A stretch of 64,000 nucleotides of DNA from Hericium rajendrae (taxonomy: Eukaryota > Basidiomycota > Agaricomycetes > Russulales > Hericiaceae): positions 2,852,001-2,916,000 of the forward strand of contig CM065880.1 in assembly GCA_033439255.1 (NCBI GenBank), given 5' to 3'. Below the pieces are notes generated by a model. That model saw nothing but the letters and a program-made list of their open reading frames with translations, was not told where the DNA came from and made no database searches. The position numbers and the translations under genes are program-made. Below, one piece after another: positions 20,321 through 48,244 of this stretch. The stretch's first letter is position 1, and each line of letters opens with the position of its first letter.

Positions 20321-20346
20321 TTAAATACCAAGGTCCAAGTCTGAGG
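20321..20346 (+). promoter_or_regulatory. conserved core promoter of pair-A gene A1
   Basis: TTAAATACCAAGGTCCAAG followed by TCTGAGG, 188 bp before the start codon. The same block stands 200-212 bp before A2, A3 and A5, and its first bases look like a TATA element. Confidence 0.5.
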
Positions 20347-20508
20347 TTCAGTTACAATCCTCATACTCTCTACTGCCCATCAGTCTACTGGGACGTCCGG
20401 CGCTGGAACGCCTCTAATCTTTGATTCTTCACGTACTGGTTCTCATCTTACCGCCTACGTGACCTTGCGATCTCAACAATCAATTCACGCCTATAGTCAC
20501 GATCAACA

Positions 20509-21956
20509 ATGTCTCCACGTTTAACACGCACACCGCCAGCACCTGACTACGACGCATATAATGGATTTAGTAACAATGCATATTCTTCGTGAGTTCCAAC
20601 GATATTCATTGCCTAGCCGTGACGTTAAGCCCCGTTTTCTCCCAAGGCTCAACTCATCATATATCCCAGCAACGTCCCATTACAGCTCGCATAATAATAG
20701 ACTGTCCTCGATACCCGACAGCAATCATCCCTCATATTGGGGTGCATACGGCAATTTCACGCAGCCAGGCTCCCAGCATCTCGGATGGGCCACTGACCCG
20801 GTGACGGGGACTCAAGGCTCTGCACAACCGTATCATTATCATGCTTCATACCAGAGCATTCCCACTGCCGAAGCCACCCAGACATCGACCCCGTACTATG
20901 CACACGATTCATCGCACGAAAACTACACGAACTCTTCTTATACCAGTGCAGTCGCCCAGTCCGCGGGATATTCGAGCGGATCTGCCCCGCGGATGGGCCC
21001 TAGTCGTCCCGGTCACGAAGCGCCTGCAACGAATGCGGCGATCCTGCAACCCAGCTCTCATCCCTCAGGTCATGCAATGCCCTACATCGACGCGCACGTG
21101 CGATCATCGAAGCCTGTCTCTTCGGTCGCTATCTCTCCACAGGAAGGAAGCTCTAGTCATAAGACCTCCTCTCGAATGCATGCGCGTGTCCCATCTCCTC
21201 AAGTTCTTCCGAAGGAATGGTACCAAGCACCAACGCAGCCAGGCTCTTCTTCTTCCTATTACCCCTCCCAGCCTTCGGCGCAGGACATGGGATCTTCCAC
21301 TCAGGTGTCCGGCAAGGAACAGCACAAGCCTCGAAAGTCAACGAGGAGCTCGGAACTGGACGGCATTCCTAAGAATCAGATGCAACGATTCCGCGTTGTG
21401 GACTCAGGGCCCGGTCCGAGCTCTTTTGGAACGAAACGGACAAGATCGCCGGGCAGTGACGCCCTTCCTCCTGCGAGAAAAGGCAAGAGCAAAGCTGCCT
21501 TATCCGTCCATGAGAAGGAAGTAGCTGCGAAGCGGAAAAAAGAGGCCAATAGAGTGCAGGCTTACCGTGATCAGCTCGATGATGTCTATGCCGAGCTTCG
21601 TGCATTGTTATATCCTGACGAGGAAAATTCCAAGCTGGCGCCGCCTAACCATGGAAAGATCCAATGCATTCGGGATGGTGAGCTAATACCCATTATACAG
21701 GTATCTCATAACTCATTACACCAATCGCACCCTCATAGCCTTAGAACGACTCAAGAGCTCGGATTCTGTTTGGCAGCAAAAGGAGGCTAGGCTCGAGGCT
21801 GAAATCAGGAGATTGAAGACGCTAGTCACGAGATATCAGGAAAAGGAGCATGAGTGGGATGCCGAAAGAAGTGGCTATAGGCAGGAGATCAGTGCAACAA
21901 ACGAGTTGGTGGGCTATCTGCAAAGATGTTTAGAGGCCAAGCACAACCAGACCTGA
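20509..21956 (+). CDS. pair-A gene A1 (subtype I): bHLH-zip-like protein of unknown function
   Basis: Exons 20509-20588, 20647-21677 and 21739-21956 give 442 aa. I recognise no named family. Residues 1-300 are Ser/Pro/Tyr/Gln-rich and look disordered. From about 265 the paralogues share KLDGIPKNQMQRFRVVDSG and KRTRSPGSDALP. Residues about 318-370 read as a basic helix-loop-helix: KRKKEANRVQAYRDQLDDVY, AELRALLYP, a loop, then NHGKIQCIRDALERLK; the last intron interrupts helix 2. The remaining 70 residues (QQKEARLEAEIRRLKTLV onward) are a coiled coil. This suggests a DNA-binding dimer, by inference. It converges on B1, 92 bp between stops. Confidence 0.75.
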
Positions 21957-22048
21957 AAGCTTGAAGACATAATTTATATACGCAATTTCTACCATACAGT
22001 AACTCGTATACTACAGTACACATCACAAATCGTGACCTGTCTTACTTC

Positions 22049-22762
22049 TCAGTGACCGGATGCCCTCCTTAATTCTGCGTTTCGTCGATTCTTGTAATGT
22101 ACGTTCAAAACGTTCTGGCATGCTTGTCGGAACTCTTCATTCGGGGACATTTGAAGTAGACGTAGCAAGACAGGTTCCATGCTGCGATGGTCCTGGCGCA
22201 CCATCCCCACATGTTCGTCTAGCCGTTGATCCAAATTCACCATCGACTCGGAGAGCGACATGACTTCACGCTCTGCCTCCGTAGTGAAGCCTATGTGATG
22301 TTCTTGTTCTTTCAGGCGGTCGACCACTGATGGAGAAGAATTCAATACTTCATCTCCCGCAAACTCCAAGCGCAGTGACATACCTGCACGCATCGTGACC
22401 GTGGCTTCCTCCCGTGAGGTCGGACGAGCGTCGGGAGGGAATGGCGTCCACATGGTCTGACCTTGTCTGAAGGATGCATCGTCTCTCAGCGAGCGCTTCC
22501 GTCCAGAAGAAGCTGCCGCTGCCTCGCGCGGGTCTCTCCAAGGAGCGGAAGAGCCTGTATGCTCGTTCTTCCTGCTCTGGTGTCGCCCGGCCTTTGGGCT
22601 TTTGAGCAAAGCTTTCTGAGGTTGAGATGCAGACGGGTGGTATGACGATCTTGCGACAGAACCAGGGCCGGCCTGGTTTATTTGAAGGGAGGACATCCCC
22701 GAGTACAGACTCGGGGGTAGCCCGGGGCTTGAAGGGACAGGCATTCGGTGGGGATGTGACAT
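22049..22762 (-). CDS. pair-B gene B1 (subtype a): basic/coiled-coil protein of unknown function
   Basis: Two exons, 22384-22762 and 22049-22326, giving 218 aa. The intron is 57 bp and lacks in-frame stops, so its retention would simply add 19 residues. The N-terminal half holds motifs shared by all pair-B genes: LYSGMSSLQINQAGPG, QKALLKSPK, APWRDPREAAAASSGRKRSL and FPPDARPT; it is basic and may carry a nuclear localisation signal. The C-terminal half (VVDRLKEQEHHIGFTTEAER onward) is a coiled coil that ends in SPNEEFRQACQNVLNVHYK. I recognise no known domain. Convergent with A1. A conserved AAGCTCTATAAC (plus strand) about 140 bp upstream of the start is a TATA box read on the minus strand. 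Confidence 0.72.
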   Translation of the reverse strand: MSHPHRMPVPSSPGLPPSLYSGMSSLQINQAGPGSVARSSYHPSASQPQKALLKSPKAGRHQSRKNEHTGSSAPWRDPREAAAASSGRKRSLRDDASFRQGQTMWTPFPPDARPTSREEATVTMRAGMSLRLEFAGDEVLNSSPSVVDRLKEQEHHIGFTTEAEREVMSLSESMVNLDQRLDEHVGMVRQDHRSMEPVLLRLLQMSPNEEFRQACQNVLNVHYKNRRNAELRRASGH

Positions 22763-23557
22763 GGCGGAGATGAACAGACAGGGCGCTGCTAGATAACAAA
22801 CGAGGTCACGTCATCGAGGCGTAAGTAAAGTAAACAAGATAGACTTACTGTGCTCGCCGGGAGCTAGAATTGAATAGCATCGGTCACAGATGTCGAAGCT
22901 CTATAACCGGCGGCAGCCGTCGACGAGCAAGGATGGAACAAGGAGAACAAGAACAATGCATTCACCGCTCATACACTTCACTTTGTTATCATTCTAGTCA
23001 GTCAACTGACGGCGCAGCCAGCCACCCGCATTTGACGGTAATATTTCTCCGGCATCGAGGGACACCTGCCTCAATGAGGACAAGGAAGTTGAAGGAGTGA
23101 CCGAACGCTATCACTGGTCTAGGCAAGGTCAGATTGGACTAGCTACATTCGAGCTCAGTACAAGGCCATTGCCTAAACCATATGCATTAAGCACTACACA
23201 CGGCAGAATAGAGGCGAGCGTGCACTACCTTTGTTCCCGACACGGCAGTACGGTGTCAACCGAGTCATAGCTGGAGAAATTCGAGTGAAGTTAGTACGGG
23301 TGGAACTCGAACGGAACCTGCAACAGTTCCCACAGAGAATTGTCTCTGTAATTCTGCCACTGTAGAATTTATTCATGAGCTTGGAATCGGTAAAATAACA
23401 TGGAAACAGATGAAATCGACTTGTCGCAACCCGAAGACTTAGCGCGCATAGAAGCTATGCAGCCGGGGCGGTCCGGGACCGTGGACGCACCACTGGTCCA
23501 GCAGGGTCCAGCCAGGCTGAGCCACTACGGTTCAACTCGTTGAAAGCGTTCAACTTA

Positions 23558-24405
23558 CAGTGCCTTGCATACGAAACTGCAGTCGACGCGCCGAGATCCT
23601 TGTTTGTTCGGACCAAAGCGTGACATTTGGCGCTCTGATCCTATTTGCGAGTCCACACCACACGTCTTCGTACATATGCTTTGCAGCACTCAGATTTCCG
23701 TTAAGATAAACAGATAAACATCCTACGGAGAATGTAATGTAAAGAGATTCAAGTCCGAACGGTTGCGGCCCAACCAGAACAGACCAGAACCCGCACGCCG
23801 CATCTGCTGCCCAGGACCTCCGGGTGCCATCCACCAAGATGCTATCCCCTTGCTGCACCCAAAGAGGTACGTCGGACACACACTGAATATCCTCTGCATC
23901 GCCATGGTGAGCGCATGGGGGCAGATGGGGGTCGTGATTCAGACTGTACGTGCCCTACCTGCATACACACAGTGTCTGGAGTACAGTTGTGGTGCCTGAG
24001 GCGCGTGGACATGTAGACTTTTACAGAACACGTCGGCGAATTTGGAGTTTTCATGCACCGTAAACCAGCACGGTCTTTTGTCTACTTACTCTCAGTGTTA
24101 GAAGCACGAGTACGAGAGCTATGGCTGCTACGCTCGGGTGCTGGCTGAGAAACGTGCCTCGGTGCGAGCTTCGAGCGCCCGGGCTGTACATAGCTTGCAG
24201 AGGCAGCTATGGCCGAGCGAGGTCCTCGTGGCTTTTTAGCTACTTTCATTGGTTTAGTTAGAGACTTACAGAAAAAAAATTGTTAATGCGGATCATCGGG
24301 GACGGCAGGAGCAGTCGTCAATTGACGTGTGACATAGCGTGACTATTTGGCGACTACAAACAAAAATCTCGACGCGTCGACTGCAGTTTCGTATGCAAGG
24401 CACTG
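23558..24405. mobile_element. non-autonomous TIR element with TA target duplication (Tc1/mariner-type)
   Basis: 848 bp bounded by about 40-bp inverted repeats, CAGTGCCTTGCATACGAAAC at the left and its reverse complement at the right, near-perfect over the outer 35 bp. It is flanked by TA on both sides (23556-23557 and 24406-24407). The paralogous spacer near 44,875 reads GTTCAACTTAGAAACG with a single TA, which is the empty site. No transposase frame is visible inside, so it must have been moved in trans. TA duplication points to the Tc1/mariner (IS630) superfamily. Confidence 0.85.
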
Positions 24406-25309
24406 TAGAAACGAACACAACATAGCTCAGTTGTCTTCATTTTTATGCAGATACATGGTCCACTTCAAAATGTTGTCCAAGGCACCTGCATGATCAAGCG
24501 CCGCGCGAACTCCTCTGCACATTGCACAACAAATGCCCACCAGCTATAGACACCCGACGCCCGACGCCCGACGCCTGATGTTGGCACAAGCTGGCACTGG
24601 CAGCTCATGCGAGTTATGTCGCGATTGATGCGTCTCATTTTAGAGGAAATATATGATGTTTGTCGTCTCTCTGTCTTCTGCACTCAATGTAATCTTCTTG
24701 TAGCGTCTTGCCGTTCTGTAGTCAGTGCATCGCGGGAGGCTGATCAACGAGGATTGTCGTCGCTGACATACTCGGCCTGCACATGCTTAGCTCCCCGGTC
24801 TGGTATCGATTCTCAAGTGATAAGTTAACTAAAGGTCGGTGGTTGTGTAGTCGCGTGCTTTTGTTGGTCAATTGCGATGGCTTTATTGTTACGTTGGTCC
24901 AAGCACCTGGGCTGCACAGCTGTGCCCAGTCAACGAACGTACGTCTTCTTGATGCTGATGATAATAAGAGTAAGAATTGACAATTGATTCACAGTGGTCA
25001 ATTGTCTACTTAGTAGCCTTGTCATTGTCACTTTCACCCAAGTACCCAACATCAGTCTTAGGCTATGCAGGACGGAAGCTCGATTTCGAGTTCGCGACAC
25101 GAAACCAAGTCTTACCGAGACCGTAATTGTTGAGACATCGCGATGTCAACGACTACATGTTCAGGCGCGCGGCCCTGGTGCATTTTGGACGCGTAACTGT
25201 CGCTCTGCTATCTCGACACTAATTGTGAGTCGTCGTTTCCACTCGTTACCTCTGGAACCGAAAGCCTGCTTTTTGTCTCTCCAGGACGCAGGCTATGCGA
25301 CGTTGGCTA

Positions 25310-25335
25310 TTAAATGCCGAGGTCCAAGCCTGAGG
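25310..25335 (+). promoter_or_regulatory. conserved core promoter of pair-A gene A2
   Basis: TTAAATGCCGAGGTCCAAG followed by CCTGAGG, 207 bp before the A2 start; the same block precedes A1, A3 and A5. Confidence 0.5.
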
Positions 25336-25516
25336 CTCCGTACCATCGTACACATCCGCTCTCCCTCCGGTTATTCTATTCTACGACAAACATCGGCGCT
25401 GGCTCGCCTCTATTCTACGACACGACAACACTATTACACAGACCGGCTCTGATCACCTCAGCTACGACTTCTAACGACCTCAATAATTGAATTACGCGTA
25501 TTCTCAACGACCGAAG

Positions 25517-26977
25517 ATGTCACAACGTTCTATCCGCACGACACCTATCTATAACACATATAATCCGAGCAGTAATGTTCAGCTTTCGTAAGTCGCAAAT
25601 TAATTGAATCCGGGACGAGTATGCAGGAACTGACCATCTGAAAGACGAAACTCAACATATGCCCCAGCAACGAACCACTATAATCAGCCTCGTGTCGCCA
25701 AATCAGTATCACCAGCAGACACGAACCCAGACGACATTGACCTGAACCATCCCGCAAATTGGGGTATCTTCGACGACCCTTCTCAGCCGCCGCGACGGCC
25801 TCAGTGGGAACGAAAGCCATCTGCGGCGACTCAATCGTACCCAATCAATAATTACGACTCTTCCCGTCAAACGACACCAACCGCCTCCGGCGCTGGACTG
25901 CCGACCCCACACTCCTCATACCAACCAACGTTCAGCAAGCACGCAAGCAGCTTGTACCCCGGGGCGCCTTTGCAGCCCTCTCCATACTCGTCAATCGGTC
26001 CTCTCCCTCTTCCCCAAGAAAGCTATACCTATACTGCGCATGGAGCGCCTTTCGTGGCTGGGAATGCTGTCCCTGCTCGTACACAATCGCACAATCAGAG
26101 TTTCTTGGACCCCTACGTTGGTGATGCACACACGTACCCACCGAGGAGCGCCGCATCTACAAGCGTCCCTCTAGAAAGGATCTCCAGGCATGTGACTCCT
26201 TCTAGCGTCCCCGCCTCTGCCCAGTCCCGTCCGCCTATTCCAAGTGAATGGCACCAATCCTCGTCGCAGGTGGCGCCAGCCGAGCCGCGTGACAAAGAGC
26301 GGCACAAATCAAGAAAACCTGCTAGACATTCGAAACTGGACGGGATTCCTCAGGACCAGATGCAACGCTTCCGAATTGTGGACATGGGGCCGGCACCGAG
26401 CTCGTCTTCTGGATCAAAGAGGACAAGATCGCCGGGCAGCGACGCCCTCCCTGACGCGAAGGTGAGGGCTACTGTCCAGGGCAGCGCTGATGGCGGGCCG
26501 AAGGGCAAGGACAAAGCCAAACTATCTGTTGAGGAACAAAAATTGCTCGAGAAGCGGAAGAAAGAGGCGGACAGAGTGAAAGCTTACCGCAACACTGTCG
26601 ATGGTGCCTACGACGAACTACGTGCGGCATTGTATCCTGACGAAGAAAACTATCCGTCCGTGCGATCTGATCACGGAAAGCGGAAATGTATGCAAGATGG
26701 TGAGTTGCTCTCCCTTTACGGCCGACCATGATCTAACCTATTGACTATAGCTGCGAGGCGGATCAGGACCTCGACATCGAATGACGTCTGCCAACAAAAG
26801 GAGGCTATCTTGTATGCCAGGATAAGAGAGTTGGAAGCAATCATTTCCAGCCAAGAATTTTCAGAGGAAATCAGTGCCCGTGCGCAACTTCAGGAGAGCA
26901 AGCAAGAGATAACAATACTACAAGGGAGAAATGCCAGATTGCAGAGGAAACTTGCGGAAAAAGAAAGACAAAAATAA
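25517..26977 (+). CDS. pair-A gene A2 (subtype II): bHLH-zip-like protein of unknown function
   Basis: Exons 25517-25587, 25645-26699, 26751-26977 give 450 aa. Subtype II differs from A1/A3 in its N-terminal half (SPADTNPDDIDLNHPANWGI, FDDPSQPPRRPQWERKP) and shares that with A5. The C-terminal half is common to all A proteins: KLDGIPQDQMQRFRIVDMG, KRTRSPGSDALPD, a basic helix KRKKEADRVKAYRNTVDGAY, DELRAALYPDEEN, then a second helix start DHGKRKCMQD, and a coiled coil IRELEAIISSQEFSEEISAR to the end. Compared with A1 it has an insert after ALPDAK. It is convergent with B2 (92 bp between stops). Confidence 0.75.
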
Positions 26978-27069
26978 TCGATTGACTACAGCCACGTTAA
27001 TTTTATTTATTGCGTGTCTGAAGTACTGAAGAGCTAAGCGAGCTAAGACTTATGAATGTAGCAGGTTAG

Positions 27070-27825
27070 TCAAAACCGCGAAGCTGATTGCCCTGCAGCG
27101 ACTCGTGCCGCACGTCGTTCGTCCTCTAGCTCATCGTCTCTCTTCCGTCTGCGGTAGTACTCCAGGAGCTTCAAGTTGTCTTGTCGGATCTCCTCGTCTG
27201 GTGCCGTTGCAATCAGTTCAAGCAGTTCACCTGACATGTAGCTCTCCCGTTCTCGACGCATGTCTGCGATAATTTGTGCCGACTCCTGCCGCACAGCCAC
27301 AATAGCCTCCAGCTTAGAAACTCGCCGATCAGCGTTGCCCCATTTCTCCTCGTACATCTGATTACCCAGCGCTTCCGTCTGTCGGATGTGGTTGGCCGCT
27401 AGTAAACAGAGTCAGTATCTTCCTTATTCTGCAGATTCAGAGACTAGCGTACCCGCACGGACCATGACGTCGTCTTCCTTGCGCGTGGTCGCTCGAGCAT
27501 CGGGAGGGAAGGGGCACCAGCATGCTTGAATCTGCCTGTAAGACACATCATCCTTCAATGTGCGCTTGTGTCCAGAAGACGCTGCGGCCGCCTCGCGCGG
27601 ATCCTTCCAAGGTGCGAATGAGCTCTGGTGCTCGCCCTTCCTGCTCTGATGCCGCGCGCTCTTGGGCCCTTTGAGTAATGCTTTTTGGGATCGAGACGTG
27701 TGTGGATTGGGAGATGCTCGTGCGACAGAGCCAGGTCCAGCCTGGCTTATCTGAAGCGACGACATCCCGGAATACAAGGTCGGAGGTAAACCGGGGCTCG
27801 GAGGGAAGGGTGTTCGGTGCGACAT
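27070..27825 (-). CDS. pair-B gene B2 (subtype b): basic/coiled-coil protein of unknown function
   Basis: Exons 27453-27825 and 27070-27398 give 233 aa. It starts MSHRTPFPPSPGLPPTLYSG and carries the common pair-B motifs SSLQISQAGPG, QKALLKGPKSARHQSRK, APWKDPREAAAASSGHKRTL and FPPDARATTRK. The C-terminal half, ANHIRQTEALGNQMYEEK onward, is a strongly charged coiled coil. Subtype b shares ANHIRQT and HKRTLKDDVSYRQ with the orphan B gene at 36.7-37.4 kb. Its TATA-like AAGCTTTATAC (plus strand) is about 140 bp upstream. An in-frame upstream Met exists but lacks conservation. Confidence 0.72.
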
Positions 27826-35441: not shown

Positions 35442-36004
35442 TCAAATCGGTTCGAGTCGCTCTACAATTCTCAGCGCCTCCGCCACTCTCACCTCCTCGT
35501 CTCTTCGGTGCTTATAATACGCATGCAACGCGCCCTGGCACGCCCGCCGAATCTCCGCATCCGGCGCCCTATGCACCAGCTCCACCAGCTGCGCCTCCAC
35601 GTCTCCGCCCGCGATCCAGGCTACGGACTCCCGGCTGCGGGCGTGCACGATGCGCGCGCGGAGGGCCGCGATGTTGCGGGTCTGCTCCGCGAGGAAGCGT
35701 TCGTGCGCGTTGATCGCTTTTACCTGGTCTGCCACTGGAACATTGTGTGCGGGCGTGACGTGCTAAAAGGTAGGCACGTTCTGGTGCGCATGACGGCGGT
35801 GCCTTCTTCGAAGGTCGTCGGGCGTGCGTTCGGGCGGAAGACGTCCCACATGCGCTCGGTGTCCATAAGGATTGCTTCGCGCTCGCGCTCTGCAGAGGAG
35901 CGGGGGTCGTTCCTGCAAGCGGGGGCCGGGCAGGCGTGATTGGTCTGAGGTGGTGTTCCCGAGTACCAGCTCGGGATCGAGGGGTAGGGCGGTCGGTAGG
36001 ACAT
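35442..36004 (-). pseudogene. pair-B gene B3, divergent, probably broken
   Basis: Exon-like parts 35778-36004 and 35442-35734. The start MSYRPPYPSIPSWYSGTPP and DVFRPNARPTTFEEGTAVMR match pair-B, as does the end (APDAEIRRACQGALHAYYKH). The central block with KALLKGPK and PWKDPREAAAAS is absent. Joining the only good donor (after AGAAC at 35778) with the only good acceptor (35735) puts the C-terminal coiled coil out of frame by one base, so it is either a pseudogene or has a splice form I cannot see. Confidence 0.5.
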
Positions 36005-36357
36005 GGTTAGTTTGACTGCACGGCGGTATTGCGGGAGCTGGACTTGGATGAGTATGGTCAGTGTGGATCTCAAAGCTTTCTTATACCCAATAGCAAACAT
36101 CGCCAGCAAACTTGGTACAAGGACTTCTGGTCTTGTTCGATGAACGGCGTACCATGCGTTTAGTTTGTTCCTTGTTGTGTGGGCCTCCAAGCCATGCTTC
36201 ATCAGTTACAAGGATGAAAACGGTGTGCCTACCCTTTGTCGTTGTTCTGAGACGAATATAAACCATCCGCTCGAAGGTGAGCCCTGCTGGATCGGAGGAG
36301 ATCTTCGAGTTCGCGAGGTTGAACGTTCAGGGAACAGCTCAATGAAACCTCGCAGAT

Positions 36358-36522
36358 GCAACCTCGTACGCCAGGATAAAAGAGCTTGAAGCCGATCAAG
36401 GGCTTGCAATGGGCAATTTGCCTCGGGTAGGTCATAAACAGTGCAATCGCGGGATCGAAAACTTGCGCCAGATAGTGGCCGTATTGCATTCGAGGCTTGG
36501 GGACAACAGAAAGCAGAACTAA
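36358..36522 (+). pseudogene. pair-A remnant (last exon only)
   Basis: The frame ATSYARIKELEADQGLAMGN to the stop at 36520-36522 resembles the last exon of A2 (AILYARIRELEAI...). It stands where the A partner of the following B gene should be and in the right (convergent) orientation, 130 bp from the B stop. No bHLH part is present upstream, so most of the A gene has been lost. Confidence 0.55.
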
Positions 36523-36652
36523 GAGCTGATTTATCACGAAATCGTCATGACATTATATTGCACCATTTGTTGAGAAAGTGGGATCTAAATGGTATATGTA
36601 GGTTGTTACATTGTCAAAACCCCGAAGCTAGGTGTCCCGGTAGACTCGAATC

Positions 36653-37393
36653 TCATTGGGTGCGCAACTGTCTTGCGTCCTCCCTATCCCATCCGCGGTA
36701 TTCTTCTAGGTTTTTCTGGTATATCTGTCGCATCTCCTCGTCTGGTGCTGTCTCGATGCACCAGAGCGTGAAGCGTTCTCGACGATCACGATGGACCTTG
36801 TCATTATATTGAGCAATACGCTTCTCTTCGGCCGCAGCGGCCTCGAGCGCATCAAGTCGCCGCTCAGCGTCGCCATAGATCTCCTCGTACATCCTGTCAC
36901 CCAGCGCTCTCGTCTGTCGGATATGGTTAGCCACTAGTAAAGGAAAGTCATAGTCATTGGGTTTCCTGCTCTGTGGATTCAGGGACAATAACTTACCCGC
37001 ACGGACCATGACGTCGTCGTCGTTGCGCGTGGTCGCTCGAGCATCGGGAGGGAAGGGACTCCAGGACGTTTGGACCTGCCTGTAAGAGACGTCGTCCTTC
37101 AGCGTGCGCTTGTGTCCAGAAGAAGCTGCCGCCGCCTGGCGTGGATCCTTCCAAGGAGTGGATGAGCTCGGATGCTCGCCCTTGCTGCTCGGGTGCCGCG
37201 CCGTCTTGGGCCCTTTGAGTAAGGCTTTCCGGTGTTGAGACGTATGCGCATGGGACGATGCTCCTGCGACAAAGCCAGTGCCTGTCTGGCTTATCTGCAA
37301 AGATGACATCCCGGAGTACAAGGTCGGAGGTAGACTGGGACTCGGAGGGACGGGCGGCTGACCGAGCCTATACAAGGAGCGGACAAGCGCCAT
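36653..37393 (-). CDS. pair-B gene B4 (subtype b, orphan): basic/coiled-coil protein
   Basis: Exons 36997-37393 and 36653-36933 give 225 aa; the 63-bp intron has no in-frame stop. It carries LYSGMSSLQISQTGTG, RKALLKGPKTARHPSSK, TPWKDPRQAAAASSGHKRTL and FPPDARATTRN, then a coiled coil VANHIRQTRALGDRMYEEIY. The first 15 residues (MALVRSLYRLGQPPV) replace the usual MSHRTPFPP start; the DNA there resembles the TACAAGG.GCGGAC.AGCGCC block found about 320 bp upstream of other B genes, so a small deletion has fused upstream sequence to the gene. Its A partner survives only as a remnant. Confidence 0.6.
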   Translation of the reverse strand: MALVRSLYRLGQPPVPPSPSLPPTLYSGMSSLQISQTGTGFVAGASSHAHTSQHRKALLKGPKTARHPSSKGEHPSSSTPWKDPRQAAAASSGHKRTLKDDVSYRQVQTSWSPFPPDARATTRNDDDVMVRAGKLLSLNPQSRKPNDYDFPLLVANHIRQTRALGDRMYEEIYGDAERRLDALEAAAAEEKRIAQYNDKVHRDRRERFTLWCIETAPDEEMRQIYQKNLEEYRGWDREDARQLRTQ

Positions 37394-38921: not shown

Positions 38922-40342
38922 ATGTCTCAACGTTTGACGCACACGCCGCCAGTGGCCGGGTACGGCGCATATAATGGTCAAATAAATAACGCCTATACCT
39001 CGTGAGCGCAATATATTCACTTCTCGCCCAACGACATAAGTCTGAGTGTTCTCAAGGAGTAGCTCCTCGTACATCCCAGCAACGAACCATCACGGCTCAT
39101 ATCATGACAATCAGCCCGCCTCGGTAACTTATGGACAAGCCGGTGCGCAGCACTGGGGATACGACAATCCCGTACAGACAGGCTCGGAACGAGGGGCGTA
39201 CAACCCGTTGTCGGCGACTCAGGACTATCATTACGATACCTCACACCATACCGTTCCCCCTGTCGAGGCCACGCAGGCGTCGACCCCATATCATGCATAC
39301 AACCCTTCATTCGAACAGTATTCGAACCATCCTTACACCAGCACCGTCACGCAGTCCGCGGAATATTCGAGCGGATGTCTACCGCGGGTGATCCCTGGTC
39401 ACCCCGGTCACGGAATGCCTTCAACGAATGCGGCGATCCTGCAACCCAGTCCCCATCCCGCAGCTCCGCTGCCTTACGTCGATCCACACGCGCGGCCGTC
39501 GAAACCCGTCTCTTCGGCCTCCTCTCCGCAAGAAGGAAGCTCCAGGCACGCGACCTCTTCCGGGACGCGCGCACCCGTTCCTTCTCCTCAGCGTCTCCCG
39601 AGGGAATGGTACCAGCCGTCAGCGCAGCCCGGCTCGTCTTCTGCCCAACATTCCCAATCTGCAGCAAAGAACTTGGGGCCGTCCGCCAAGGAACAGCACA
39701 AGTCTCGAAAGTCAAGCAGGAGCTCTAAACTGGACGGCATTCCTAAAGATCAGATGCAGCGATTTCGCGTCGCGGACATGGGCCCGGGACCGAGCTCGTC
39801 TGGAACGAAACGGACAAGATCGCCGGGCAGCGATGCCCTGCCTGACCCGAGGAAAGAAAAGAGCAAGGCTGGCTCATCACCCGAGGAAAAGGAGATAGCC
39901 ACGAAGCGGAAAAAGGAGGCCGACAGAGTGCAGGCTTACCGTGATCAGCTCGACAATGTCTATGCTGAGCTCCGCGCATTGTTATACCCTGACGAAGAAA
40001 ATTCCAAGTTGGCGCCATCTAATCATGGGAAGATCAAATGCATTCAAGACGGTGAGCTAGTATCTAGGACGTGTGCCATGGCCGTCATAGCTGATCGGAT
40101 TTTTTGGACCTCTGATAGCTATAGAACGACTTACGAACTCAACGCCGCATTCTGTTTGGAAGTGTGAGGAGGCTAAGCTGAAAGCTGAAATTAGCGCACT
40201 GCAAGAGAGAGACAGAAGACACCAGGAAGAGCGGCGTGAATTTGTTGCTACAACCAACGCTTATATGCAGCAAATCAGCGTATTACTTAGGATGGTGGAA
40301 GACCTGAAAAGAAGTTCAGCGAGCAATGGCAATCAGGGCTAA
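38922..40342 (+). CDS. pair-A gene A3 (subtype I): bHLH-zip-like protein
   Basis: Exons 38922-39001, 39057-40051, 40119-40342 give 432 aa. Close to A1 through most of its length: SSSYIPATNHHGSYH, QASTPYHAYNPS, SAEYSSGCLPRV, LPREWYQPSAQPGSSS. It has the common KLDGIPKDQMQRFRVADMG, KRTRSPGSDALPDP, basic helix KRKKEADRVQAYRDQLDNVY, AELRALLYPDEEN, NHGKIKCIQDAIERLTNS and a coiled coil to the end. Convergent with B5, 87 bp between stops. Confidence 0.75.
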
Positions 40343-40429
40343 TGTCTTTGGCCATAATCTACAAATATGATATCTTGCCTAGACGTGTCCCCGCAGCACG
40401 TATATATAGTCCTACATAGAACCTAACTG

Positions 40430-41146
40430 TCAAACACCGTCCCTCTGTCTGGCTGCCCTCCTATACTCCATGTCTCGTTGCATCTTGTAATGGAGGTTCA
40501 AGAGTTTTTGGCATTCGTGTCGAAACTCTTCGTTCGGGGAATTCTGGAGTGCGTCTAGCACGACAGATTCCATTTCACAATGACGCCTGTACACCATTTC
40601 CCCAATGTCGTGGAGCTGTTGCCCGTCGTTCTTGACCATCTCCCTGACGGGAGCAAGTTCACGCTTTGCCTCCCTAAAGCATGAATCCTCTTGTGCTTTC
40701 AAACCGTCAACGACTGTTAGGAAAGTGGATCAGCACTTCATCATCACGAAAATTATGGGCTGTGACATACATGTACGCATCACGACTATGCCCTCCTCGC
40801 TCGTGGTCGGACGAGCATCGGGAGGAAGTGGAGTCCACATCGTCTGACCTTGTCTGAATGACGCATCGTCTTTCAAGGAGCGCTTACGCACAGCAGACGC
40901 TGCCGCCACCTCTCGTGGATCTCTCCAAGGAGCGGAAGAGCCTGGATGCTCGTTCTTCCTGCTCTGGTGTCGCGCGGCCTTCGGGCCTTTGAGCAAAGCT
41001 TTCTGGGGTTGAGATGCAGATGGGTGGTATGATGATCCTGCGACAGCGCCAGGGCCGGCCTGGTTTATTTGCAGAGAGGACATCCCCGAGTACAGACTCG
41101 GGGACAATGCGGGACTCGGAGGAGGGAAATGCGTTCGGTGCGACAT
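40430..41146 (-). CDS. pair-B gene B5 (subtype c): basic/coiled-coil protein
   Basis: Exons 40771-41146 and 40430-40713 give 219 aa. It starts MSHRTHFPPPSPALSPSLYS and carries SSLQINQAGPGAVAGSSYHP, QKALLKGPKAARHQSRK and APWRDPREVAAASAVRKRSL. The C-terminal half, FVDGLKAQEDSCFREAKREL to SPNEEFRHECQKLLNLHYK, is a coiled coil. Subtype c is shared with B7 at 47.5-48.2 kb. Its upstream region enters the perfectly duplicated 759-bp block. Confidence 0.72.
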
Positions 41147-41218
41147 GAAGCAGAAAAGGCGGTCTCTGATGGATGGAACCAATTAATGAAGTAATGAACG
41201 GAATACACAGGTCAAGCT

Positions 41219-41977
41219 TACCTAGCTCTCCAGGAGCTCAAACTGAATGACTGCCGTCAAAGTAAGTCTCGAAGCTTTATTGCCGATGGCGAACTTCATC
41301 GAGCAATAAACAGAACAAGGCTTACCTACAATATGAATATATTTTCCTCGTTATGGATTGGGCGGCCTTGTTCTCCGAAGGCTGCTATACCAAAGCGGTC
41401 CGCATTCGATTGGTGATATTGCCACTGTAGAAACATCCTACCTCATAGAGTACAAGGGGCGGACGAGCGCCGCCACTTCAGTTGACTTCTCGTTAGCAAA
41501 GCATCCGGCTTCCTACATATGACATGTGCAGCGCAAGAAACGCCATACACGGCACAATGTACATTACTACTTTTGTTTACTGAAGTAGTCCGGGGTCGAC
41601 AGCGCCAGATGAAGCTATGAAGCCTGGTGGAACAGAGATACCAAGGAAAAGCCACAGAAACGAGCCATAATTCATCATTCACAGGATTTATCTAGTATCA
41701 CAGAAGACAAAAGAGCCATGAATCGACCGGCGTGAATCTTGGAATTGTGAACACTGGAAAGACATGCTTGAGCTCGAAGATGAAAATTGACGAAATAATT
41801 ACTTATGTGAAGTACGCAACCCGTGGGAATAACGTACATAGTGGTCGCGGTTGTCGCGGCCCGGGCAAGCTTGGCGGCTTCGTCGATAACTAGAAGTCAA
41901 TTGTTAACTTGAACTTGTTGCTTATCGCCAGACTAACTTACGATGTCTGTCAACTCACGACCATTATTTCTCGCAGA
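41219..41977. repeat. 759-bp perfect direct duplication, copy 1
   Basis: Read line by line, every base equals 48317-49075 (offset 7098). It covers the upstream region of the subtype-c B gene and reaches 35 bp into the 2OG oxygenase first exon. Beyond 41977 the two copies differ at several percent of positions. Confidence 0.9.
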
Positions 41978-42608
41978 CGCACGGACCGATAGCACTTTTG
42001 AAGAGATCCCCGTTATGTGAGCAGAACCTTTCACGCCATAACCACGCTACTGGCCTCGCGCAGGCCCAAGAATGCGCTATAATATTGATGTTCCCACCAG
42101 AGATCTTCTAGGAGCGAGCAACACTGATCCTGCCATTCGAAGGCAGCTCGCAGACGAGATTCGCGATGCGTGGGCTTCTTCTATGGCATTTGCTCACCGA
42201 TCGACATGATGCCGAGCTAGTAAAGGCTGACCAAGTTCCTAGTGAAGAATCACGGTATTCCTCCGCCGACGACCGAAGGGGCTCTGCATGCTGCGAAGCA
42301 GTTTTTCTTTCTTCCGTTAAATTCCAAAGCCAAGGTCAGACTTGACGCATTTCTTGGCCTACGAGTGGCTGAACCTGTTATCGGCAGTTAGATATCCATA
42401 AATCCTCGAATTTCAAGGGTTAAACTGCGCTTCTCGGTGAGAACACAGATCCACAGAATCGGGGAGATCTACATAAAGACTTCGACCTCGGTTGGGAAAT
42501 CACTCGGTGCAGACGCGCAAGATCGGGACGATGGTATCATGAGCGGCGAAAACGTGTGGCCTCCGGAAAGCGAGCTGCCTGGATTCCGTCGGGCAGCGCT
42601 GGAATACT
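41943..42608 (+). pseudogene. 2-oxoglutarate/Fe(II) oxygenase pseudogene (5' half)
   Basis: Matches exons 1-4 of the intact oxygenase gene at 49041. It has a 10-bp deletion near 42170 (the sequence coding CINV before GFF is lost), which shifts the frame, and homology stops at about 42605 in the codon for AALEY. After that point the DNA is pair-A sequence. It therefore lacks the whole catalytic domain. Confidence 0.85.
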
Positions 42609-43312
42609 GTACTCCTCCCAGCCTACGGCGCGGGACTTGGGGCCGTCTATCAGGGTGCACGACAAGGCAAAGCACAAGTCTCGAAAGCCCTCTAGGAGCT
42701 CGAAACTAGATGGCATTCCTAAAGACCAGATGCAAAGGTTTCGTATCACGGAGTTAGGGCCGGGGCTGAGTTCGTCTGGAACGAAAAGGACACGATCGCC
42801 GGGCAGCGACGCCCTTCCTGACGCAAGGAAAGGCAAGAGCAAAGCTGGCTTATCGCCCGAGGAGAAGGAAGTGGCCGCGAAGCGGAAAAAGGAGGCCAAC
42901 AGAGTGCAGGCTTACCGTGATCAGTTCGACGATGTCTACGCTGAACTCCGCGCATTATTGTACCCCGACGAGGAGAATTCCAAGCTAGCGCCGTCTAACC
43001 ACGGAAAGCTGAAATGCATTCAGGACGGTAAGCCAACTCCACATACACAATTGGTTCGCCAGCTCATCGAGCCGTCCTGATTTCTTAGCGGTAGAGCGAA
43101 TTAAAAATTCTGTACCCCATTCTATTTGGCAGCAAGAGGAGGCTAGGCTATATGCAGAAATCAGAGCACTGCGTGCGGAAGCCAATGCGCGCGAGGCAAG
43201 GGAACGTGAATTGGTCGTCAAGAACAACGCGTATATGCAGGCTGCGAATGCGTTACAAGGGACGGTCGACCGTCTGCAGAGACGTTTGGCGGCCATGGGC
43301 CAGTTCGATTGA
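42609..43312 (+). pseudogene. pair-A gene A4 (subtype I), 5' half missing
   Basis: Exon parts 42609-43027 and 43089-43312. From YSSQPTARDLGPS onward it follows A1 and A3: KSRKPSRSSKLDGIPKDQMQ, KRTRSPGSDALPDARK, basic helix KRKKEANRVQAYRDQFDDVY, AELRALLYPDEEN, NHGKLKCIQDAVERIKNS and a full coiled coil to TGA. The promoter, exon 1 and about 200 N-terminal codons are replaced by the oxygenase fragment, whose frame differs. An in-frame ATG at 42556 lies in the oxygenase part, so a short bHLH-zip protein of about 230 aa could still be made. Convergent with B6. Confidence 0.7.
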
Positions 43313-43401
43313 CAGTATTCACAGATAATTTATGAGTAAAGTCTTCTGTCTAGGCGAGACACGTCAGTAATATGTATGCAGTAATGCTCGTCATAAGGTT
43401 A

Positions 43402-44104
43402 TCAAAGGCCCATGTCTCGCCCCATCTTGTAGTAAGTATTCAAATTGTTTTGACATTCTTGTCGAAACTCTTCGTCCGGGGACATTTGAAGCAATTTCAG
43501 CCAGATAGCTTCCAGATCACGATAGTTCTGATCCATGACTTCCCCGCATTTCTGCTGGCGCCGGCCCTGGCTCACGAGCCTCTCCCTGGCAATAGCAAGT
43601 TCACGATTCACCTCCGTGATGAAGCGCGCATGTGCTTCTTCTTCCTTCAAATGGTCGACCACTGAGAGATAAATATTTCAATGCTCTGTCTTTCGCAAAA
43701 TCGGAACCCGATTGAGTCGACGTACTCTTACGCATCACCATCGTGCCTTCCTCGCGTGTGGTTGGACGAGTGTCGGGGGGGAGCGGAGTCCACATAGTCT
43801 GACCTTGTCTGAAAAGCGCATCGTCTTTCACCGAGTGCCTGCGTCCAGCAGAAGTTGCCGCCGCCTCGCGCTGATCCTTCCAAGGAGTGGACGAGCTAGA
43901 GTGCTCATTCCTCCTGCTCTGGTGCCGCGCAGCCTTGGGACCTTTGAGCAAGGCTTTCTGGGGTTGAGATGAAGACGGGTGGTACGATGATCCTGCGACA
44001 GAACCAGGGCCGGCCTGGTTTATCTGAAGGGAGGACATCCCCGAGTACAAACTCGGGGGTAGCCCGGGGCTTGACGGGACAGGCATTCGGTGGGAATATG
44101 ACAT
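43402..44104 (-). CDS. pair-B gene B6 (subtype a): basic/coiled-coil protein
   Basis: Exons 43726-44104 and 43402-43661 give 212 aa. Very like B1: MSYSHRMPVPSSPGLPPSLY, SSLQINQAGPGSVAGSSYHP, QKALLKGPKAARHQSRR, TPWKDQREAAATSAGRRHSV. The coiled-coil half is VDHLKEEEAHARFITEVNRE to SPDEEFRQECQNNLNTYYK. A TATA-like AAAGCTTTATAAC (plus strand) lies about 135 bp upstream. Confidence 0.72.
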
Positions 44105-45975
44105 GGTGATGAAAAGACAGGGGGCTGCTAGATGATCAAACGAGGTCACGTCACCGAGGCGTAAGTAAAGTAAAGAAGATAGGCTTACTGTGCTCGCCAG
44201 GAGCTAGAATGAAATAGCATCGGTGATAGATGTCAAAGCTTTATAACCGGCGGCAACCATCGACGAGCAAGGATGGAACAAAGAGAACAAGAACAGCGCA
44301 TTCGCCGTCCATACACTTCACTCTGTTATCAATCTAGTCAGTCGATTGATGGCGCGACCCAGCCACCCGCATGCGATGGTAATATTTCTCCGGCATAGAG
44401 GGAGAGCTGCCTCAAGAAGAACAAGGAGCGACCGCCGAACGCGTCACCGCTCTTGACAATGTCAGATTGGACCAGCTACATTCGAGTTCAGTACAAGGCC
44501 ATTGCCTAAACTGTATGCATTAAGCACCACACATGGTAGAAGAGAGACGAGCGTGCATTACCTTTATTCCCGACTCGGACACGGCAGTGCGCTATCATCC
44601 TAGTCAAAGCTGGAGAAATTCAGGTGAGGTTAGTACGGGTGAAACTCGAACTGGAATCCTGCAATAATTTCCAGAGAGACATATATCTGTAGCTCTGCTA
44701 ATGCAGAATTTATCCATGAGCTTGGAATCAGCAAAATGACACGGAGGCAGACGACTGGAAAGCGACTTTTCGGAACTCAAATACTTAGCGCGCATAGAAG
44801 CTATGCAGCCGGAGCGGTCCGGGACCGCGGATGCACCACTTTCCACTGCCAGTTCAACTTGTTGAAAACGTTCAACTTAGAAACGTGTCAGAACATGACC
44901 ACACAGCTCAGTTGTCTCCAAATTTTATGCAGGTTCATGGTCCGCTTCAAAAGGTTGTCCAAAGCACCTGCATGATCATCGATCAACGACCAAGCACTGC
45001 GCGGACTCTAATGCCCATCAGGTTTTGACACCCGACACCCGATGTTGGCACAAATTGGCACAGGGAGTTCATGCGAGTTATGTCGCGACTAGTGTGTCTC
45101 ATGCTAGAGCAGATCATATGCCCTATGTCATCTCTCTTTCTTCTGCATTTAATTGAGTCTTTTTGTAGCGTCTTACCGTTCTGTAGTCAGTGCACCGCGG
45201 GAGGATGACGAGGATTGTCGTCGCTGACATACTCGGCCTGCACATGCTTAGCTCTCTCATCTAGGATCTCAAACGATAAGTTAACTCAAGGTCGGCGGTT
45301 ACGTAGTCGCGTGCTTTTGTCGGTCCATTGCGATGCTCTTATTGTTATGCTGGTCCAAGCGCCTGGGCTACAGAGCTGTGCTCAGTCAACGAACGTATGT
45401 CTTCTCGATGCTGACGATAACAAGAATGAGAACTGACAATTGATTTACAGCGGGACCTGTCTCTAATAGTCTCGCAATTGTCGCTTTCCATAGAGACAAA
45501 CCATCAGTCTTTGGCTATGCAGGACAAAAGCTCGATCTCGAGTCCAGGACGCAAAATCAAGTTTTATCGACATTATAATTGTTTAGACATCATGATGTCG
45601 ACGACTCTGCGAGCCGCTCGCTGCCCTGGTGTATTATGATCCCTCATACTGTCCCGACGCTACAATAACCATAATTGTGAGCCGTCGTTTCCACTGGTTT
45701 CCTCTGTGAAACCGAAAGCTTGCCTTTTGTTTCTCCAGGACGCAGGCTATGGCACGTTGGCTATTAAATGCCGAGGTCCAAGTCTGAGGCTCCGTACCAT
45801 CCCACACATCCGCTTTCACTCGGTTCATTCTATCTTACGACAAACGTCGGCGCTGGCACGCCTCTATTTCTACGACACGGATAAGATCACTATTACACAG
45901 ACAGGCTCTAATCATTTCAGCTACGACATCTAACGACCTCGATAATTTTATCACGTCCATTCTCAACGACCGAAG
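44105..45975. other. pair-B/pair-A intergenic spacer (copy of 22.8-25.5 kb)
   Basis: Diverged copy of the spacer between B1 and A2, lacking the mobile element. Upstream sequences of B6 and A5. No gene seen. Confidence 0.6.
45764..45789 (+). promoter_or_regulatory. conserved core promoter of pair-A gene A5
   Basis: TTAAATGCCGAGGTCCAAG followed by TCTGAGG, 212 bp before the A5 start codon. Confidence 0.5.
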
Positions 45976-47446
45976 ATGTCGCAACATTCTATTCACATGA
46001 CGCCCGCGTCCGTCTATACCACGTATAATCCAAGTAGTAATGTTCAATCCTCGTGAGTTGCAAATGAATTGAATCTGGCTTGATTACGCAGAGCTAACAA
46101 TTTGGAAGACCAAACTCAACATACGCCCCAGCAACGAACCACTATAATCAGCATCTTGCTGCTCAATCAGTGTCGCCTGCGGACATAAACCCCGACGATA
46201 TTGACCTGAACCATCCCGCGAACTGGGGAATATTCGACGACCCTTCTCAGCCGCCGCGACGGCCCAAGTGGGAACGGAAGCCATCTGCGGCGACTCAACC
46301 GTACCCAGTCAAGAATCACGACACCTCACGTCAAACTATACATACCACGTCCGGCGCTGGAAAGCCGGCTTCATATTCTTCATACCAACCAACATTCAAC
46401 AGGCACGTGAGCGGCGTATACGGCGATGCATCCCTACAATCCTCTCCATATTCATCAAACGGTCCTCTGCCGCAAGGTAACTATAGCCATCCTGCACATG
46501 GAGCATCTTTCATGGCCGGGAATGTCATCGCTGCTAGTACACAGATCCCGAACCATGGTTTTCCAGCTCTCTACGCTGGTATGCACCCATTACCAGCAGC
46601 ACCAGCGAGCATCCCTCCACAAGGAAGCTCTGTGCATGTTTCTCCTTCCAGAGTCCCTACCTCTGCCTCTGCCTCTGCCCAGCCTCGTCCGCTCAGTCCG
46701 AGTGAATTCCATCAACCGTTGTCGCAGGCGCCACACATGAATGCTTCGTCAGTCGAGCCGCATGACAAGGACCGGTACAAATCAAGAAAGCCTGCTAGAC
46801 ATTCGAAGCTGGACGGGATTCCGAGGGACCAAATGAAGCGTTTTCGGATCGTCGACATGGGGCCGGGACCAAGTTCGTCTTCTGGATCGAAGAGGACGAG
46901 GTATCCGGGAAGCGAGGCTCTTCCTGACGCGAAGGTGAGGGCTACTGTCCGGGGCGACGCCAATGGCGGGTCAAAGGGAAAAGCCAAAGCCAACCTGTCC
47001 CTTGAGGACAAGCGATTGCTAGAGAAGCGGAAAAAGGAGGCCAACAGAGTGCAGACTTATCGCGACAGCCTCGAAGATGCCTACGCCGAACTCCGCGCGT
47101 TACTATATTCTGGTGGGGAAAGTCCTACATCCGTGTCATCCAACCACGGAAAGCAGAGATGTATTTGGGATGGTGAGCCAATCCATCGCACGAGTCACCA
47201 GGGCTGTCTTTGCTCATCGGAGTATCTTATTTCACAGCCATAAAATGCGTCAGGAATTGGCAGCAAAAAGAGATAAGGTTAGAAGCTCACATCAGGGCAC
47301 TCGAGGCGGAGCGCAGGACAGAAGTGGCAGAACGACATGCCTTGATCGCCGAAAACAATGCGCATAAGCAATTTATCAGCGAACTGCGTGAAACGGTGGA
47401 CTATCTGCAAACTTGCTTGACCTCAGTGAAGGGCGATCAGACCTAA
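45976..47446 (+). CDS. pair-A gene A5 (subtype II): bHLH-zip-like protein
   Basis: Exons 45976-46052, 46109-47172, 47238-47446 give 449 aa. N-terminal half as in A2 (DDIDLNHPANWGIFDDPSQP, PRRPKWERKPSAATQPYP). Common C-terminal half: KLDGIPRDQMKRFRIVDMG, KRTRYPGSEALPDAK, basic helix KRKKEANRVQTYRDSLEDAY, AELRALLY, NHGKQRCIWDAIKCVRN and coiled coil EIRLEAHIRALEAERRTEVA. The loop between the helices has lost the acidic DEEN seen in the others (SGGES instead). Convergent with B7, 93 bp between stops. Confidence 0.75.
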
Positions 47447-47539
47447 AACTTGACGATAATAGATGGTATAGAGTTTCTTGTCAAGACGAGATGCAGCAGC
47501 CAGATGTATGCACTGTCGCACACTACTAGTACATGGTTG

Positions 47540-48244
47540 TCACAGTCCCCTTCTCGTCTCCATGTCCCGTCGAATCTTGTAATAATTATCCAGCTTTTTC
47601 TGGCAAAACTCTCGAAACTTTTCGTTTGGGGACATCCGAAGCATCTTTAACAAGACAGGTTCTATGTCACGAACCTCCTCGAGTAACGTCTGCGAGAATT
47701 CCCGTCGGTGTTGCTTGCTGTCCGCGGACATCTCTTCGAGGGCAGCAACTCTGCATTCTGCCTCGGAGAACCAGGGTGCACGAGCCTCTTGTTCCCTTAT
47801 GTGATCAATCACTGACGAAGGAAAGTAGTCAGTCCAAGTTGATGTTTCGTGAAATTCATGCGACATACTTGTACGGACCACCACAGTGCCTTCCTCGCGT
47901 GTGGTTGGACGAGCATCGCGAGGGACTGGAATCCACGGTATCTGATCCTGTCTGAAGAGCACATCGTCTTTCAGCGAGCGCTTGCGTCCAGCAGAAGCAG
48001 CCGCCGCCTCGCGCGGGTCCTTCCAAGGAGTCAACGCGCTAGGGTGCTCGCTCCTCCTGTTCTGGTACCGCGCAGCCTTGGGACCTTTGAGCAAGGCTTT
48101 CTGGTGCTGGGACGCAGACGGGTGGTACGACGATCCTGCGACAGGCCCAGGGCCCGCCTGGTTTATTTGCAGAGAGGACATCCCCGAGTATAGACTCGGG
48201 GATAATGCAGGACTCGGAGGAGGGAAGGGCGTTCGGTGCGACAT
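47540..48244 (-). CDS. pair-B gene B7 (subtype c): basic/coiled-coil protein
   Basis: Exons 47869-48244 and 47540-47811 give 215 aa; the 57-bp intron is free of in-frame stops. MSHRTPFPPPSPALSPSLYS, SSLQINQAGPGPVAGSSYHP, QKALLKGPKAARYQNRR, TPWKDPREAAAASAGRKRSL, then coiled coil MIDHIREQEARAPWFSEAEC to SPNEKFREFCQKKLDNYYK. Nearly the same N-terminal half as B5 at 40.4 kb but a very different C-terminal half. Confidence 0.72.
   Translation of the reverse strand: MSHRTPFPPPSPALSPSLYSGMSSLQINQAGPGPVAGSSYHPSASQHQKALLKGPKAARYQNRRSEHPSALTPWKDPREAAAASAGRKRSLKDDVLFRQDQIPWIPVPRDARPTTREEGTVVVRTSMSHEFHETSTWTDYFPSSVIDHIREQEARAPWFSEAECRVAALEEMSADSKQHRREFSQTLLEEVRDIEPVLLKMLRMSPNEKFREFCQKKLDNYYKIRRDMETRRGL

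Follow-up and report, generated by a model that had tools for sequence, protein, structure and literature searches.

The 64,000-nucleotide stretch of the Hericium rajendrae genome analysed here (the window; C3:2852001-2916000, where C3 is contig CM065880.1 of a genome of 46,767,965 bases and 19 contigs) contains five convergent pairs of two genes, termed A and B, a sixth unit with an A remnant and a B, and one orphan B. The window lies within an array of such pairs, in which both genes are under purifying selection, the exons for the C-terminal tails of A and B form a hypervariable centre, and the two tails have moved jointly from one unit to another. Two of the A-tail types recur in a second species, Hericium alpestre. 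Our best overall reading, which we regard as evenly poised between right and wrong, is that A is a basic helix-loop-helix (bHLH)-like protein and B a novel partner, that both carry pair-specific tails, and that the pair functions like the HD1/HD2 homeodomain mating pairs.

Convergent pairs with a variable centre

A six-frame search of the whole genome gives at least 12 A matches and at least 22 B exon matches, all on C3 between 2.57 and 2.945 Mb; only the best candidates are scored in this search, so that both counts are lower bounds. The whole-genome searches find no copy of A or B outside the C3 array. When a divergent A is used as the query, the additional matches are again confined to C3 and reach 2.955 Mb, and an isolated A bHLH-like exon lies just past the array at C3:2954692-2954847 (-) (E 3e-4). 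At least 11 A/B pairs, in both orientations, are located inside about 375 kb of this single contig. A splice-aware aligner with the pair-1 proteins as the query models 12 A and 16 B copies. Ten convergent pairs are modelled: P1-P5 are pairs 1 to 5 of the window, P6-P8 lie to its left and are inverted, and P9 and P10 lie at 2.572 and 2.941 Mb. An eleventh pair consists of a divergent A facing B16, and B18 has a related divergent A at a greater distance. All of P1-P10 are convergent (10/10), and the divergent order of HD1/HD2 is not encountered. The stop codons of A and B are 92-98 bp apart in P1-P5 and P7, and 135, 252, 165 and 48 bp apart in P6, P8, P9 and P10 respectively.

The pair-1 unit retrieves other entire units at E=0, and the repeat families have 5-6 copies, far above chance. 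Self-BLAST of C3:2712001-2976000 (E at most 1e-20, matches of at least 250 bp) reveals direct and inverted duplications, and the P6-P7 block is the inverted counterpart of the P1-P2 block. An earlier note on this DNA, made from its letters alone, described five convergent pairs and a sixth B with an A remnant, and splice-aware models place all of these units where it had them. It put the stops 87-130 bp apart; their adjacency holds, and the measured distance is 92-98 bp for the five pairs of the window. Its inventory is correct for the units that it lists and omits the orphan B, an isolated B exon-2 fragment and the part of the array outside the window. Its view that A and B are unrelated to each other and occur as convergent pairs is supported.

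A consists of three exons and B of two, and the introns are conserved: the A intron after residue ~27 is present in 8 of 12 models, the A intron at ~371 in all 12, and the B intron at ~120-127 in all 16. Seven of the 12 A models (P1, P2, P3, P5, P6, P7 and P8) run unbroken from the usual ATG to the stop. P9 has one stop, P4 lacks the 5' end, and P10, A11 and A12 are not cleanly modelled. None of the 16 B models contains an internal stop or a frameshift, although B14 lacks the usual start region. The ratio of nonsynonymous to synonymous divergence (dN/dS) is calculated by the Nei-Gojobori method and given as the median of the pairwise comparisons with dS<2; A12 is excluded throughout, and P4 is excluded from the A front, for which its model is spurious (including it gives front values of 1.00 and 1.39). 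The median is 0.42 for the A front (29 of 45 comparisons, maximum 0.60), 0.18 for the A core (34 of 55, maximum 0.31), 0.22 for the bHLH-like part of A (27 of 55, maximum 0.41) and 0.28 for the B N-part (101 of 120, maximum 0.54). It is 0.49 for A exon 3 (11 of 55, maximum 0.89) and 0.59 for the B C-part (31 of 120, maximum 0.96), values that are rough, as most of the tail comparisons are saturated. Both genes are under purifying selection, and the B N-part is not near the dN/dS of 1 that the earlier note had considered for B frames. The conserved introns and the low dN/dS indicate that A and B are genes and not chance frames. Most B copies are preceded by a TATAAAGC box (TATA-like) and a short GCTCCTGG motif, and the seven aligned A copies by a TTAAAT...CCAAG...CTGAGG block; no clear promoter element common to A and B is seen.

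The DNA identity between units, measured in sliding windows, drops from A intron 2 across the spacer to the B intron and recovers outside. Every one of the 45 comparisons within P1-P10 shows a lower identity for A exon 3 than for the bHLH-like part, and all but one (P2/P7) show a lower identity for the B C-part than for the B N-part (44 of 45). In subfamily I (P1, P3, P4 and P6), A exon 3 is 40-54% identical, whereas the bHLH-like part is 75-89% identical, and the B C-part is 43-49% identical, whereas the B N-part is 79-82% identical. Across P1-P10, A exon-3 identity ranges from 12 to 54%, excluding P2/P7 (90%). Synonymous divergence is raised in the centre in most, not all, comparisons, and the centres therefore look older than the flanks. 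The centres thus look like discrete old types set in partly homogenised frames.

Joint movement of the tails and tail types in Hericium alpestre

P2, P7 and P8 have similar A fronts, and that of P7 is nearer to P8 (81%, dS 0.23) than to P2 (75%, dS 0.50). In contrast, the centre of P7 shares 95-99% identity with the P2 centre, and its identity to the P8 centre is near background (~40-50%). Within positions 1139-2145, P7 agrees with P2 and not with P8 at 409 of 421 informative sites, compared with 114 of 273 sites in the rest of the unit, and the tract scan gives a score of 16.5, compared with a maximum of 5.4 over 200 permutations. With A intron 2 at 1182-1233 and the B intron at 1852-1941, this tract begins ~45 bp before the former and ends ~200 bp beyond the latter. 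The B N-part of P7 is also nearer to P2 (91%) than to P8 (73%). As far as position 1048, P5 agrees with P2 and not with P3 at 361 of 440 sites, compared with 173 of 538 in the remainder, the switch lying near position 1050, ~150 bp ahead of its intron 2. Its A front has a dN of 0.20 to subfamily II and 0.65-0.69 to subfamily I, whereas its exon 3 has a dN of 0.50-0.51 to subfamily I and 0.60-0.77 to P2, P7 and P8, and its B C-part has a dN of 0.49-0.58 to subfamily I and 0.77-0.83 to subfamily II; its bHLH-like part is equidistant from the two subfamilies. Between B16 and B18, the N-part has an identity of 90% (dS 0.24) and the C-part one of 42%, with saturated dS, which marks a boundary on the B side as well. 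The left joint of the exchanges recurs near the bHLH-like part, and the right joint is less sharp. The distances of A exon 3 and the B C-part are correlated across pairs (Mantel r 0.83), and the partial correlation is 0.60 (p 0.003) when the A core, the bHLH-like part and the B N-part are held.

The homologue search suggested in the earlier note was run against 5.8 billion proteins with one A protein, one B protein and an A profile of 8 rows, and finds no homologue beyond Hericium. A relatives are found only in H. alpestre, namely two, P0007 and P0008, known as proteins without genomic context, and the one B protein retrieves no homologue, H. alpestre included. The B of H. alpestre is probably present but missed, because a B as close as the paralogues should have surfaced; it is probably unannotated or outside the length range. 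The P0007 tail matches that of P6 at 66 of 67 residues (next best 55%), and the P0008 tail matches that of P1 at 65 of 70 residues (next best within the H. rajendrae genome 52%), so that two of the A-tail types are shared with H. alpestre, with 93-99% identity. The remaining A-tail types are not found in H. alpestre by the protein searches. For P0007 and P6, identity is higher in the tail (66/67) than in the front (240/304; p 2e-5), and the same holds for P0008 and P1 (65/70 against 88/118; p 0.002). The paralogues P1 and P6 show the reverse pattern, with a tail at 35/65 and a front at 243/317 (p 4e-4). P0008 is itself chimeric, because its front is nearer to P6 (107/120) than to P1 (88/118), whereas its back is nearer to P1 (119/125) than to P6 (78/120); P0008 and P5 are chimeric near the same joint as P7. 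A tree of segments groups P1 with P0008, P6 with P0007, and P2 with P7 at 96/97, 94/93 and 87/86 respectively (bootstrap/Shimodaira-Hasegawa-like approximate likelihood ratio test), and the other forks are mostly open. Tail types that are kept across species, yet are 12-54% identical within one genome, suggest distinct specificities and not decay. Recent introgression of the block between the species may also account for the sharing, and would likewise be a sharing of types.

Ordinary birth-and-death of a duplicated pair, in which loosely constrained tails drift and gene conversion homogenises the rest, is possible but on the unlikely side. It is consistent with the direct and inverted duplications and the remnants, with recently shared stretches (~700 bp upstream of B is identical in P3 and P5, and windows upstream of A are 89-99% identical in P1 and P6), and with a dN/dS that is higher in the tails than in the core, the bHLH-like part and the B N-part. 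However, the H. alpestre tails are more conserved than the front between species and less conserved than the front between P1 and P6, and decay is hard to reconcile with these results, because it would have to yield tail conservation across species and tail divergence between paralogues at once. The dS, mostly though not always raised in the centre, likewise argues for tail types that are old rather than fast-drifting.

Nature of the proteins and proposed function

Among the matches listed (25 of 55 families), PF00010, the Pfam HLH family, appears for 3 of 10 A members, with a best E of 0.0025. The best A score is ~18 bits, as reckoned from member 1 (E 0.41, 10.9 bits), and P0007 scores 12.1 bits; both are under the gathering cut-off of 20.7 bits. 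Alignment of A with seven bHLH stretches of the same genome by hhalign gives a probability of 60% for 19 columns over helix 1, and UniRef labels the H. alpestre homologues 'BHLH domain-containing'. The genome has 14 HLH matches, all of them off C3. A has a long, Ser/Pro/Tyr-rich N-terminus, a basic stretch ahead of helix 1 and a helical tail past helix 2, and B is small and basic. Both have conserved basic stretches, which are putative nuclear signals. B has no above-cut-off Pfam family (3 B open reading frames (ORFs) and 7 B models), a comparison with solved structures gives nothing decisive (best E 0.28), and B looks like a new protein family. The tails are charged and mostly poor in Pro and Gly, and their matches to PDB profiles are weak, many of them to coiled coils (best E 0.034); no pattern of complementary net charge between A and B tails is seen by eye.

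Based on these results, the array may be a locus of paired nuclear genes. A would be an atypical bHLH-like, DNA-associated regulator and B its dedicated partner or restrainer, and each A would work with, or be held back by, its own B. The pair-specific interaction surfaces would be the helical C-terminal tails that A exon 3 and B exon 2 encode, and the chance that these tails bind each other in a type-specific manner seems to us about even. The convergent order would set both specificity exons side by side, usually ~95 bp apart, such that a recombination or gene-conversion tract could move a matched tail pair into another unit unseparated. The outer parts (the promoters, the A front and the B N-terminus) would be shared and partly homogenised, and the centre would diversify into old discrete types. 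A likely use would be telling matched from unmatched partners, as homeodomain mating pairs do. The earlier note had proposed a regulator with its partner, or a recognition pair. The pattern looks so, and the proposal gains strength from the way in which the two tails move together; that the products are nuclear, that A contacts B, that each pair is specific and that it serves recognition is what we infer.

Several observations weigh against this reading. Canonical bHLH proteins have a Glu/Arg pattern in the basic region, and A appears to lack it by reading of the sequence; neither P0008 nor the divergent A matches PF00010, and A is under the Pfam HLH cut-off wherever it is scored. By a simple scan, heptad periodicity is significant (p<0.05) in 1 of 11 A tails and 2 of 16 B tails. 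Of the 'bHLH-zip' protein of the earlier note, the HLH part is a weak match below the cut-off, the heptads are mostly not significant, and the coiled coils that it placed at the end of both proteins are weakly supported. A exon 3 also tracks the B N-part (Mantel r 0.82; partial 0.52, p 0.017, with the B C-part held), much of B moved as well in the P7 and P5 exchanges, and on the A side the exchanges start as much as ~150 bp ahead of intron 2, which means that the variable centre is narrower than the stretch exchanged. Co-inheritance of the tails does not prove that they are in contact, because adjacency alone would yield linkage. Intact Bs without an intact A (P4, P9, B13, B15, B17 and perhaps B14) outnumber As without a B (A11 and A12), which counts against a strict two-partner device, because such a device predicts no surplus. 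The comparative base is also thin, namely one genome, that of a probable dikaryon, and two homologues.

The surplus of B is the main hint of a killer-and-antidote array (meiotic drive or toxin-antitoxin-like), in which A would be harmful, B its matched neutraliser, and new pairs would be made by recombination; such a surplus is expected if a lone antidote is tolerated and a lone poison is not. The family is clustered and fast-turning, and recombination can create new driver specificities in the wtf genes of Schizosaccharomyces (PMC13160552), which are, like A and B, a fast-diversifying family that may gain new matched specificities in this way. We nevertheless consider this explanation rather improbable. 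The scanned A and B sequences contain no Pfam domain above the cut-off that suggests a toxin or an enzyme, the numbers of orphans are small, and orphan As exist. The weak Pfam matches of A and B are few, of many kinds, under the cut-off where shown, and chance-like. In the wtf system, one gene yields both poison and antidote, whereas A and B are two unrelated convergent genes, known here from sequence alone. A map of H. erinaceus is reported to contain segregation-distortion regions (PMC7005679); the array is unplaced on this map, which counts neither way.

It is very unlikely that the array is an assembly artefact, in which both nuclei of a dikaryon are joined in one contig and some paralogues are alleles. 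The source strain was probably a dikaryon, with a heterozygosity of 3.61% (PMC10608310), and the inverted P6-P7 counterpart of P1-P2 and the P1/P6 upstream windows could be taken for such a joining. However, the P6-P7/P1-P2 matching (at least 250 bp) ends ~1-1.5 kb beyond the pairs and carries no single-copy neighbour, and the matching blocks average 74-85% identity; moreover, the tail pattern would hold even if some units were alleles. A mobile element bearing both genes, as the many copies in both orientations might suggest, is hardly credible, given that all copies found are on one stretch of C3, that the block ends vary between copies, and that no Pfam transposase or polymerase is present in the 24 of 39 other long window frames scanned.

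Mating loci and related systems

The array was considered as a mating locus, and this was rejected: the homeobox-KN matches lie at C1:2.085 Mb and C3:1.188 Mb and the STE3 cluster at C2:4.2 Mb, and the array lies elsewhere. The homeobox-KN matches of the genome are two, at C1:2085043 and C3:1187854-1187970. The latter is on the contig of the array, ~1.4 Mb from the nearest pair, and is not the published matA. In H. rajendrae, matA is on Chr1 and matB on Chr2 (PMC10608310). The array on C3 does not share the position of matA, the homeobox match being on C1, if Chr1 is C1, as we infer (MIP itself was not searched). No homeodomain is found in 3 A and 3 B ORFs and 7 B models, nor, among the matches listed (25 of 55 families), in 10 C-terminal parts of A. 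The absence of homeodomains claimed in the earlier note is thus borne out in the scanned A and B sequences, and the array is apart from the homeobox and STE3 loci.

HD1 and HD2 are partner genes kept together, with a mostly conserved part of DNA-binding type, a highly variable part that governs compatibility, and several sub-loci (PMC5100862). A and B resemble them in being paired genes with a mostly conserved part, putatively of DNA-binding type, and a hypervariable part, which by analogy would serve partner choice, and in both layouts the variable ends would lie on either side of the spacer, facing inwards. In contrast, HD pairs are divergent with variable N-termini, whereas A/B pairs are convergent with variable C-termini, have no homeodomain and lie away from matA. 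To judge from sequence, the A/B layout is the mirror image of an HD pair, made of unrelated genes. A resembles bHLH-zip proteins in its weak HLH match, its basic stretch before helix 1 and its helical tail after helix 2, and differs from them in its sub-cut-off score where scored, its hypervariable tail and its dedicated partner gene. The absence of a homeodomain, the convergent order, the position away from matA and the score under the Pfam bHLH cut-off would set the A/B system apart from both, and the A and B gene families look new. In bacterial polymorphic toxin/immunity cassettes, such as contact-dependent inhibition (CDI) and Rhs systems, a variable C-terminal part and a matched partner are adjacent and exchanged together. 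The A/B pairs share this side-by-side arrangement and the joint exchange; the cassettes differ in being bacterial, toxin-immunity and same-strand systems, and no homology is claimed. No description of convergent arrays of bHLH-like and partner genes was found in the literature, as judged from titles and the openings of abstracts.

A tentative possibility is that the array represents a mushroom recognition system that has so far gone undescribed and is linked to neither mating locus, in which the tails would distinguish self from non-self nuclei or mycelia in somatic or post-mating incompatibility. The array bears several marks expected of a recognition locus, namely old-looking discrete types in two species, matched partners and exchange of specificity. 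Somatic recognition in basidiomycetes 'remains poorly understood' (PMC8229728), and the accessible part of this source names no basidiomycete gene for it; the array supplies named genes for such work. Whatever the role of A and B, a general trick is suggested: with convergent order, two unrelated genes would have their specificity halves inherited and relocated as one.

Units and neighbouring sequences of the window

The units of the window are as follows (window positions).

20509..21956, +, pair 1 gene A; exons 20509-20588, 20647-21677 and 21739-21956; 442 amino acids (aa)
21678..22383, no strand, pair 1 variable centre (identity trough); A intron 2, A exon 3, 97-bp spacer, B exon 2 and B intron
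22049..22762, -, pair 1 gene B; two exons, intron 22327-22383; 218 aa
25517..26977, +, pair 2 gene A; splice-aware model
27070..27825, -, pair 2 gene B; intron 27372-27452
35475..35735, -, isolated B exon-2 fragment
36346..36519, +, degraded A exon-3 remnant of the sixth unit
36653..37354, -, homologous part of the B of the sixth unit (B14); frame open, usual promoter and start not conserved
38922..40342, +, pair 3 gene A; splice-aware model
40430..41146, -, pair 3 gene B; intron 40714-40770
42571..43312, +, pair 4 gene A without its 5' part, left edge approximate; core, bHLH-like part and exon 3 retained
43402..44104, -, pair 4 gene B; intron 43662-43725
45976..47446, +, pair 5 gene A, chimeric; subfamily II front, subfamily I exon 3
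47540..48244, -, pair 5 gene B; intron 47812-47868
59461..60063, +, orphan B (B17); no recognisable A alongside

The array is surrounded by ordinary genes, because frames of the window outside the pairs match a Vts1-like RNA-binding protein with a SAM domain (55534-57225, -; Pfam E 1.9e-19) and, to the left of the array, a PMC2NT-domain protein (11901-12494, +) and a Sin1/CRIM-domain protein (16505-17290, -). No Rfam match is found inside the window. Another local family is present at C3:2733502-2750646 (loci L026 and L009), with blocks of ~2.3-2.5 kb that are 72-79% identical, in direct and inverted orientation, and without any A or B match. Internal tandem repeats, spaced roughly 65-70 bp apart and 72-77% alike, are present at C3:2770283-2771118. 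A recent 380-bp duplicate with 99.5% identity (C3:2816504-2816883 and 2821869-2822248) is located between P8 and P7.

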